Shown in pieces: positions 4,275-17,608 of a stretch of DNA of 35,494 nt (position 1 is the stretch's first letter; each line of letters opens with the position of its first letter). Made by a program: the position numbers and the translations under genes. The stretch comes from Thermoplasmatales archaeon (lineage in GTDB: Archaea > Thermoplasmatota > E2 > DHVEG-1), in the NCBI GenBank assembly GCA_020341795.1, contig CP070836.1, positions 1,388,014-1,423,507 of the forward strand, in the 5' to 3' direction. The notes under the pieces are model-generated. The model searched no databases, was not told the DNA's origin, and saw only the letters and a list, made by a program, of their open reading frames with translations.

Positions 4275-5225
4275 ATGATGCCAAGTGAGAAGAAAAAAAA
4301 AGAAAAACCAAGTATTGAAGAAATAACTAGATGCCCTCAATGTTCAGGCACACATCTAACAAAAGATTATTCCCGAGCTGAACTTGTATGTGAAGATTGT
4401 GGTCTTGTAATTGATGAAGATTTCATTGATCATGGACCTGAATGGCGAGCTTTTGACTCTGATCAGAGAGAAAAACGTGCACGAGTTGGAGCACCTATGA
4501 CATACACAATACATGACAAAGGTCTATCAACTATGATTGGTTGGAAAAACCGTGACTCATACGGTAAATCAATCCCAACACGTAACAGAGCACAACTATA
4601 TAGGTTAAGAAAATGGCAGAGACGTATCCGTATTAGCGATGCAACAGAACGAAACCTTGCTTTTGCATTGTCAGAACTTGACCGTATGGCTTCTGGTATG
4701 GGTCTTCCAAGAAATGTTCGTGAAACAGCTGCTATGATTTACCGAAAAGCAGTTCTTAAAAACCTTATTCGAGGTAGAAGTATAGAAGGTGTATCTGCAG
4801 CTGCATTATATGCAGCTTGTCGTCAATGTAATGTTCCACGAACACTTGATGAAATAGCTGGCTCATCCAGAGTTTCAAGAAAAGAAATCGGAAGAACATA
4901 TCGTTTTATTGCCCGAGAGCTAGGACTTAAATTAATGCCAACAAGTCCACAGGATTACATCTCAAGGTTCTGTAGTGAACTAAAGCTATCAGGTGACGTT
5001 CAATCGAAAGCAATAGAAATTCTAAAAGATGCTGCTGACAAAGAGCTAACAAGCGGTCGTGGTCCAACTGGTGTAGCCGCTGCATCTATTTATATCGCAT
5101 CTATTCTCTGTGGTGAAAGAAGAACCCAAAGAGAAGTTGCAGATGTAGCAGGTGTCACAGAGGTTACAATTAGAAACCGTTACAAGGAACTTGCAGAGAG
5201 ACTAGACATAGACATAATTCTTTAA
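4275..5225 (+). CDS. tfb: Transcription initiation factor IIB (TFB)
   Basis: The archaeal TFIIB homologue, which binds the TBP-TATA complex and recruits RNA polymerase. The 316-residue protein has an N-terminal zinc ribbon (C20, C23, C39, C42; CPQC and CEDCG), a B-reader/linker segment (GPEWRAFD onward, about 54-80), and two cyclin-like repeats (about 110-200 and 205-305). The second repeat contains [16 protein letters not shown] and the DNA-recognition helix near [12 protein letters not shown]. Length and order are those of a full, functional TFB. The start is one of two adjacent ATGs (4275, 4278) behind GGGGGA. The rRNA methyltransferase follows 23 bp downstream across a T-rich stretch and may be cotranscribed. 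Confidence 0.97.
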
Positions 5226-15492: not shown

Positions 15493-15580
15493 ACAAAAAA
15501 ACAATTTTTCTCCTTATTTATATGAAGAAAAAAACAGATAGTTTTTTTCCGAAATATTCTTATATTGTTTAATACATTCA

Positions 15581-15675
15581 AACGTTCAGGCGGAGAGATG
15601 GGATTGCATAGTATAACAATTTAAGAATTTTTATTTGCGGTGTTTAACACCTCCGCCGCCTCCCCCATTAACGTT
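15581..15675 (+). ncRNA. Candidate structured RNA or thrS leader element (GC-rich, self-complementary)
   Basis: This element is strikingly GC-rich for the region. GGCGGAG (15589-15595) is the exact complement of CTCCGCC (15651-15657); GATGGG (15597-15602) can pair with CCCATT (15664-15669, one G-U); and AACGTT flanks both ends (15581-15586 and 15670-15675). The first two pairings cross, as in an H-type pseudoknot. A local hairpin GGTGTTTAACACC is an alternative that competes with stem 1. TTATATT at 15560-15566 is about 26 bp upstream of 15589, so a transcript could start at GGCGGAG. It lies about 60-145 bp before the thrS ATG. Either a cis-acting leader controlling thrS or an independent small RNA would fit. 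No tRNA fold fits. No coding frame explains it. Confidence 0.5.
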
Positions 15676-15733
15676 AGTGATAACAATCATTATCTTTAAT
15701 AACAATTATTTGTTTTACAGGGTTTGATTCTAT

Positions 15734-17608
15734 ATGAAACTATTATTTATTCATAGTGACTTTATTGAATACGAAGTAAAAGAAAAAGCAATAAAAACAC
15801 CTGAAGAAACAGATAAAAAAACCGATAGATTTGAAGAGGCACTTACTGTTTTTACAGCAGTTGAAAAAATAGATGAAAAATCATCAAAACATGCTGTAAC
15901 ACAGGCAATCGAAGAAATTACTAAAATCGCAGAACAACTTAATGTAAAAAACATAATGCTTTATCCATATGCACATCTAAGTAGCGATCTGGCAAGTCCT
16001 AAAAAAGCACAAGAAATACTAATTGAAATTGAGTATGAACTTAAACAGAAAAATTATAATGTAAAAAGATCACCTTTTGGATGGTATAAAGCCTTTAAAA
16101 TATCATGCAAAGGTCATCCACTTTCAGAACTATCACGTGAAATAATTCCAGTAGGTGAAGAAACAGATTCGTTAAAAAAAGAAAGAAAACTTAGTTCATA
16201 CTGGAATATTTTAACACAAGATGGACAACTACATGATGTTGGTAAATTCAACTTTAAAGGACATGAAAATTTAAAGATATTTTCTTACTATGAAAAAGAA
16301 AAATCAAGAGCAGAAAAACAAGAACCTGCACATGTAACTCTAATGAAAAAACTGGAAATTGCTGACTATGAACCTGCCTCAGATGGTGGAAACATGAGGT
16401 TTTACCCCAAGGGTAGATTAATAAAAAAGTTAATCGAGCGTTATGTAACACAGAGAGTAGTCGAGTATGGTGGCCTTGAAGTTGAAACTCCAATAATGTA
16501 TGATATGGAACATCCAACTCTTTCAAAATATCTTCAGAGATTCCCTGCAAGACAATACCAAATTGAAAGTGACAAACGAAATTTTTTCCTGCGTTTTGCT
16601 GCATGCTTTGGCCAATTTCTTATGGCACATGATTCAACAATTAGCTACAAAGATTTACCACTAAAAATGTATGAATTAACTAAATATTCATTCAGACGAG
16701 AGCAATCTGGAGAGCTTACTGGTCTTCGAAGATTACGTGCTTTTACTATGCCTGATGTTCATGCTTTTACTGCTGACCTTGATATGGCCATGGATGAATT
16801 CAAGATAAGATTTGATTTAAGTCTGAGTGTTTTAGATAAAATTGGAATTGAAAACTCAGATATTGAGATGGCTTTAAGAACAACCAAAGATTTTTATGAA
16901 AAAAATAAAGAATTTATTCTTTTTCTCGTTAAAAAACTTGGAAAATCAATACTTGTTGAAATGTGGAATGAACGAATATTTTACTTTGTTTTAAAATTTG
17001 AATTCAACTTTGTAGACATGTCAAATAAGGCATCTGCTCTTAGCACCGATCAAATAGACATTGAAAACGGAGAAAGATATGATATAAAATTTACAGATAA
17101 ATATGGTAAAACCAAACATCCATTGATTCTTCATTGCAGTCCATCTGGTGCTATTGAAAGAGTAATATATGCACTTCTTGAAAAAGAAGCGATAAAAATG
17201 AGTAAAGGCCTAAAACCAATTTTACCCCTTTGGCTTTCCCCAACACAGATAAGACTTATTCCAGTTGGAGATGAATTTATTAAAGACTGTGTTAAGTTTG
17301 AACAAGACATTAACAATCACGAGTATTATAAAATTCGCATCGACATAGATGATCGTGAGGAAAGCGTTAGTAAAAAAATTCGTGATGCTGAAAAAGAATG
17401 GATTCCAATTATAATTGTCGTTGGTGAAAAAGAAATAAATAAAAACACATTTTTACCAAGATTTAGAAACGATAAAATTGGTGATAATTCAAAAGAATAT
17501 AAAATAAAAGATCTACAAAAACTCGTTTTAGATGATATAAAAAACTATCCTAATGAGTCATTACCTTTATCTATCTATCTTTCTAAAAGACCAAAATTCA
17601 AAGGATAA
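15734..17608 (+). CDS. thrS: Threonyl-tRNA synthetase, archaeal type
   Basis: Charges tRNA-Thr with threonine. The 624-residue protein begins with the archaeal-specific N-terminal editing domain (MKLLFIHSDFIEYEVKEKA, about 1-140; D-aminoacyl-tRNA-deacylase-like fold that removes mischarged serine), with KSPFGWYK-like segment 'RSPFGWYKAFKISCKGHPLSE'. The class II catalytic core follows: RFAACFGQFLMAHD, motif 2 YSFRREQSGELTGLRRLRAF, PDVHAF, and motif 3 LHCSPSGAIERV. The zinc ligands expected for ThrRS (Cys in RFAAC, His in DVH, His in LHCS) are present. The C-terminal anticodon-binding domain starts near LSPTQIRLIPVGDEF. The protein is complete. It stands alone behind the candidate structured leader. 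Confidence 0.96.
   Translation: MKLLFIHSDFIEYEVKEKAIKTPEETDKKTDRFEEALTVFTAVEKIDEKSSKHAVTQAIEEITKIAEQLNVKNIMLYPYAHLSSDLASPKKAQEILIEIEYELKQKNYNVKRSPFGWYKAFKISCKGHPLSELSREIIPVGEETDSLKKERKLSSYWNILTQDGQLHDVGKFNFKGHENLKIFSYYEKEKSRAEKQEPAHVTLMKKLEIADYEPASDGGNMRFYPKGRLIKKLIERYVTQRVVEYGGLEVETPIMYDMEHPTLSKYLQRFPARQYQIESDKRNFFLRFAACFGQFLMAHDSTISYKDLPLKMYELTKYSFRREQSGELTGLRRLRAFTMPDVHAFTADLDMAMDEFKIRFDLSLSVLDKIGIENSDIEMALRTTKDFYEKNKEFILFLVKKLGKSILVEMWNERIFYFVLKFEFNFVDMSNKASALSTDQIDIENGERYDIKFTDKYGKTKHPLILHCSPSGAIERVIYALLEKEAIKMSKGLKPILPLWLSPTQIRLIPVGDEFIKDCVKFEQDINNHEYYKIRIDIDDREESVSKKIRDAEKEWIPIIIVVGEKEINKNTFLPRFRNDKIGDNSKEYKIKDLQKLVLDDIKNYPNESLPLSIYLSKRPKFKG

Follow-up and report, generated by a model that had tools for sequence, protein, structure and literature searches.

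A conserved small RNA candidate, usually adjoining thrS, in an order of the Thermoplasmatota

Between positions 15588 and 15667 (forward strand) of the window, as we call the whole stretch of 35,494 nucleotides analysed here from a Thermoplasmatales archaeon, lies a sequence that matches no known RNA family and probably encodes a new RNA, either regulatory or with a housekeeping role. Judged by comparison with its relatives, it is set apart by its conservation, a promoter of its own, a compensatory change in its main stem and its independence of any one location. With respect to function, we give an even chance to a stand-alone structured small RNA that acts in trans. To our knowledge, archaea have few recognised structured RNAs other than the universal ones. 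If part of the work of this RNA is the control of the threonyl-tRNA synthetase gene that it usually adjoins, it could be an archaeal counterpart of the riboregulation of synthetase genes in bacteria; if it does not control thrS, it would represent a new family of trans-acting RNAs.

Conservation and distribution

The decisive evidence that the element is real lies in its conservation among related sequences. Upstream regions were taken from thrS homologues on genome contigs and aligned, as the original prediction had proposed, and the arms turned out to be conserved almost exactly in relatives within the Thermoplasmatota down to about 59-60% ThrRS identity; they were not found near thrS in loci of Methanosarcinales, Methanothrix and Archaeoglobi. 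These two arms, GGCGGAGAGATGGGATTGCA and ACACCTCCGCCGCCTCCCCCA, are practically invariant (33 loci, 41 distinct sequences) in 48 of the 52 genomes of the window's order, and the AT-rich middle between them cannot be aligned between families. For example, when the window is compared with genome G214 of family f2, the arms are identical at 41 of 41 positions and the middle is unalignable, while the identity of their RNase P RNAs has fallen to 76%. This implies strong selection on the RNA, which probably does something important in this large group of uncultured Thermoplasmatota. The element could not have been seen from folding energy alone, since the block has a z of only -0.38 (for a nested-only fold, the pseudoknot being unscorable by the program).

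We searched 390 genomes of the phylum with a covariance model and with a pattern that tolerates mismatches. The genomes of the order that carry the RNA belong to families f1, f2 and f3, and the four without it are 63-79% complete. There is one RNA per genome, with the sole exception of G094, where a second, unlinked copy (L149:1398-1475) has a different middle and a perfect GAGTAC/GTACTC helix beside stem 1. Outside the order, G126 (family f8) has a clear relative, with an E value of 5.9e-6 under model R1 and of 7.3e-9 under model R2, which includes the G126 sequence itself, and G211 (family f9; E 0.02) has a second sequence that is probably a relative. The model search gave no convincing match when nearly all the remaining families of the phylum were sampled. 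Of the weak matches outside the order, those that we inspected looked coding or due to chance, with the exception of the clear locus L150 and the probable locus L167; for L167 the E value of 0.02 in a 40-genome search is borderline alone, but it is accompanied by the same variant of stem 1 as in L150. As for viruses, the 3' arm gave some hits, and the only viral contig with an exact 5' arm proved to be a coding coincidence; the matches in phage records were chance only.

Promoter and transcription start

The TATA-like box that had been noted upstream of the element is real. With A15588 taken as +1, 50 loci give a logo with a purine-rich BRE at -38 to -33 (CCGAAA at 15549-15554 in the window), a TATA box at -30 to -23, at a fixed distance from +1 (TTCTTATATT, 15557-15566, centred at about -26), A/T at -11/-10 and pyrimidines at -2/-1, which leaves A15588 as the A of a pyrimidine-pyrimidine-A initiator. 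By its sequence this is a textbook archaeal promoter, which would start transcription at the first base conserved in the RNA, as would be expected of an independent small RNA gene. At the other end, conservation stops at A15667, with no conserved T run beyond. Just upstream of the BRE and TATA box, loci of families f3 and f2 also carry CTTTCGGAACTRCTG (L096:1200-1220; L097, minus strand, about 1560-1580; L031, about 4795-4815), which is possibly a conserved upstream control element.

Structure of the RNA

The strands of the RNA follow the order P1-P2-P3-P1'-P2'. The pairing of GGCGGAG with CTCCGCC, on which the original prediction was built, is indeed present as P1 (15589-15595 with 15651-15657): it is 100% paired in 21 diverse sequences, and when the block was shuffled 5000 times, only two of the shuffled versions contained a 7-bp stem in which six or more of the letters were G or C. 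In L150 one pair is altered on both sides, from G-C to A-U, and L167 has the same GGCAGAG/CTCTGCC form, the change in these two loci being possibly one shared event. To judge from these sequences, another family of the class maintains stem 1 through a compensatory substitution. The second proposed pairing, GATGGG with CCCATT, which crosses the first, is present as well, but only its core is conserved, namely TGGG (15599-15602) with CCCA (15664-15667), here called P2. A check for covariation gave one compensatory pair, in P1, and P2 is kept in 98.8% of cells and essentially never varies; in L167 its outer pair is lost. Considering this invariance without covariation, a crossing helix is consistent with the sequences, not proven by them.

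Directly after P2, many f1 members are predicted, with P1 imposed, to form a further helix P3, tentatively AUUGC (15603-15607) with GCGGU (15637-15641). Its position may be taken by other pairings, UUGCA/UGCAA in L031, GCAC/GUGC in L038, L091 and L092, and GGCCGGG/CCCGGUU in L167. The local hairpin GGTGTTTAACACC (GGTG-TTTAA-CACC, 15639-15651) is kept in most of family f1, takes the form GGAG..CACC in one f1 clade and is replaced in family f2 and elsewhere. This hairpin had been thought to compete with stem 1 in the manner of a switch, but the two helices have only the base C15651 in common and the hairpin differs from family to family, so that the proposed switch is unsupported; the hairpin is an alternative to P3, not to P1. 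An outer helix of the flanking AACGTT repeats (15581 and 15670) is refuted: the repeats are present, yet they are not conserved in relatives and thus lie outside the element.

Two features of the RNA are unpaired. One is a U-rich tract in the variable loop (15628-15632), a run of at least five T in 43 of the 50 loci compared and shorter in the most divergent ones. The other is a C-rich segment between P1' and P2', GCCTCC at 15658-15663 or GCCUCC(CC) in the RNA, which is invariant across the order and of which CCTCCCC is retained even in families f8 and f9. The part of the original prediction that speaks of a small RNA under a TATA box of its own, folded with a pseudoknot, is backed by the conservation, the promoter logo and the compensatory change in stem 1.

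A possible trans-acting RNA

In the mechanism that we favour, the BRE/TATA promoter would start transcription at A15588 and give an RNA of about 80 nt or longer. This would fold into an H-type pseudoknot in which P1 (GGCGGAG/CUCCGCC) is crossed by P2 (UGGG/CCCA), and the loop between the two would accommodate the variable P3/U-rich domain. The RNA would work in trans as an RNP, its rigid pseudoknot core being read by a protein or other partner, and a partner that reads both sequence and shape would explain the invariance of paired and unpaired bases alike. The U tract is a likely binding site for SmAP (archaeal Lsm), and GCCUCC is likely to be a base-pairing site, for example for the GGAGG of ribosome-binding (Shine-Dalgarno) sites; both roles are predicted, and we infer the action in trans along with them. 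Archaeal SmAPs bind U-rich RNA (PMC12817955), and sRNA162 of Methanosarcina mazei masks a ribosome-binding site (PMC3510493). Moreover, in a sample from this genome GGAGG stands before 13 of 134 ORFs (about 10%), as against 2 of 134 internal controls (1.5%), so that Shine-Dalgarno sites exist as possible targets. On these grounds, and at even odds, we favour a trans-acting sRNP.

Genome-wide, complements of the C-rich tail are no commoner than a control pattern, and the one exact complement outside the element lies in a coding FAD-binding motif. Antisense searches against LSU, partial SSU and RNase P RNA gave no run within the genes that was longer than in shuffled controls; there is an 11-base match in the flank of the RNase P locus, outside the gene. 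Through this match a second GC-rich block came to light (L258:1110-1180, in G000), on the opposite strand to the RNase P RNA gene and some 320 nt past its 3' end. It has a TATA-like box upstream and a crossing layout of its own, GCGGAT/ATCCGC with TGAGG/CCTCA; Rfam has no match to it, and no counterpart was seen close to RNase P in four relatives. The 16S gene is absent from the window's assembly. In three other assemblies the 16S rRNA model is matched over part of its length only, positions 4-828 in G069 (L289, G069:C2:36320-37138) and 57-295 in G108 and G129, and the rRNA genes of these three assemblies are interrupted, masked or mis-assembled.

The extreme, order-wide invariance of paired and unpaired bases is also what one would expect of a class-specific housekeeping RNA, with a standing like that of bacterial 6S RNA: a highly expressed, pseudoknotted RNP without relatives elsewhere, bound to a core machine, perhaps the ribosome or RNA polymerase. 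We hold this to be possible, if rather doubtful.

Relation to thrS and other neighbours

In families f1 and f2 the RNA lies 47-112 nt before the ATG of thrS (15734-17608, forward strand, a 624-aa ORF outside the RNA), on the same strand, and it is directly upstream of this gene in every inspected f1 or f2 locus with a long enough contig. As for INDEPENDENCE from thrS, 25 of the 28 inspected loci L091-L118, a set obtained by pattern search and not selected by thrS, have thrS directly downstream. Of the remaining three, one lies on a contig that stops too soon, and the two from f3 genomes have a gene for a polyprenyl synthase where thrS would be, the RNA keeping its own TATA promoter there. In G094 an unrelated gene follows the second copy. 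In G126 the next downstream gene is a dihydrouridine synthase on the opposite strand that ends 23 nt away, with thrS beyond it; with this convergent gene directly downstream, the RNA cannot be a leader in f8. Its conservation is thus independent of the neighbour gene, and from these placements it seems likely that its ancestral place was near thrS, yet that it has been kept without being a thrS leader.

A riboregulator of thrS, as originally suggested, is therefore not established: the RNA does adjoin the gene in f1 and f2, but there is no such linkage in f3 or for the second G094 copy, and in f8 a convergent gene comes between the two. A cis-acting leader would require that the strong upstream promoter makes the thrS mRNA and that a pseudoknot in its 5' leader senses charged tRNA-Thr, ThrRS or a metabolite and so controls thrS. 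Besides the adjacency, it would be in keeping with the T runs between RNA and thrS, which are mostly 4 or less across the loci; with no conserved terminator there, read-through into thrS, and hence a cis role, could occur. The TATA-like box of thrS itself (TTTAATAA, 15695-15702, conserved about 35 nt before the ATG in 33 loci) is weaker and has no clear BRE, which also suits a leader, but it could transcribe thrS without the element. The element is moreover absent before thrS in Methanosarcinales, Archaeoglobi and other relatives, and there is no excess of Thr codons as in a leader peptide (21 of 500 residues), so that a threonine-rich peptide was rejected. On balance, we think a thrS leader unlikely, though worth keeping in mind.

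A smaller chance should be given to an RNA of dual use, which would be the first part of the thrS transcript in f1 and f2 and be processed to a stable small RNA acting elsewhere; this would unite the thrS linkage and the missing terminator with the independence seen in f3, f8 and the paralog. We find it very hard to believe that the conserved inverted repeat is not an RNA at all but DNA under protein binding: the compensation in P1 would be equally expected of a DNA dyad, but the fixed-distance promoter is on one side only, with its +1 exactly at the first conserved base, and the spacer between the arms, of about 55 bp, is not constant in length.

Within the window, the conserved AGATGGGA (15597-15620) holds an ATG, with GGAG two bases 5' of it. 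That this invariant ATGGGA encodes the start of a conserved micropeptide (AUG-GGA after GGAG) is the least credible reading, since the frames run for 4-41 codons with no conserved end and are conserved no further than Met-Gly, the conservation is at the nucleotide level with no synonymous pattern, and the ATGGGA letters double as a P2 strand.

Comparison with known RNAs

A search of Rfam 15 with the element of the window and five homologous loci, also proposed originally, gave no family above the gathering threshold, whether tRNA, SRP, C/D, H/ACA or any other, and a tRNA/tmRNA search of the window found none. The RNA is like RNase P RNA and other housekeeping RNAs in being single-copy, highly conserved and under its own promoter. 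A divergent RNase P RNA was rejected, a normal one being present elsewhere in the same genomes, and, with no tRNA in the window and no Rfam match, this is not a known housekeeping RNA. No description of the element was found in the open-licence literature on thrS, pseudoknots and Thermoplasmata RNAs, archaeal structured-RNA surveys and T-boxes; in a 2010 survey of 104 candidate RNAs the words Thermoplasma and threonyl are absent (PMC2864571).

The bacterial thrS leader (the E. coli operator) and the T-box riboswitches are likewise structured RNAs upstream of an aminoacyl-tRNA synthetase gene. Ours differs from them in having no match in Rfam, where the sequence and structure model of the T-box family does not fit it, in having no conserved terminator and in occurring away from thrS; a T-box or cis leader should in every case be the 5' leader of a gene for an aminoacyl-tRNA synthetase or of an amino-acid gene, which f3, f8 and the unlinked paralog contradict. 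In common with HDV-like ribozymes, this RNA has its strands in the order P1-P2-P3-P1'-P2' and a P1 of 7 bp with G as its first base. Nevertheless, it has neither a P4 nor the catalytic J4/2, with only GCCUCC between P1' and P2', and Rfam gave no match to such a ribozyme; its transcript would start one base before P1, the would-be cleavage site, and so have no leader to cleave off. Finally, we know of no sequence relation between this RNA and the archaeal trans-acting sRNAs such as sRNA162. It resembles the latter in being short and in having a single-stranded segment able to mask ribosome-binding sites (PMC3510493), but differs from it in a core that is near-invariant across the order and probably pseudoknotted.
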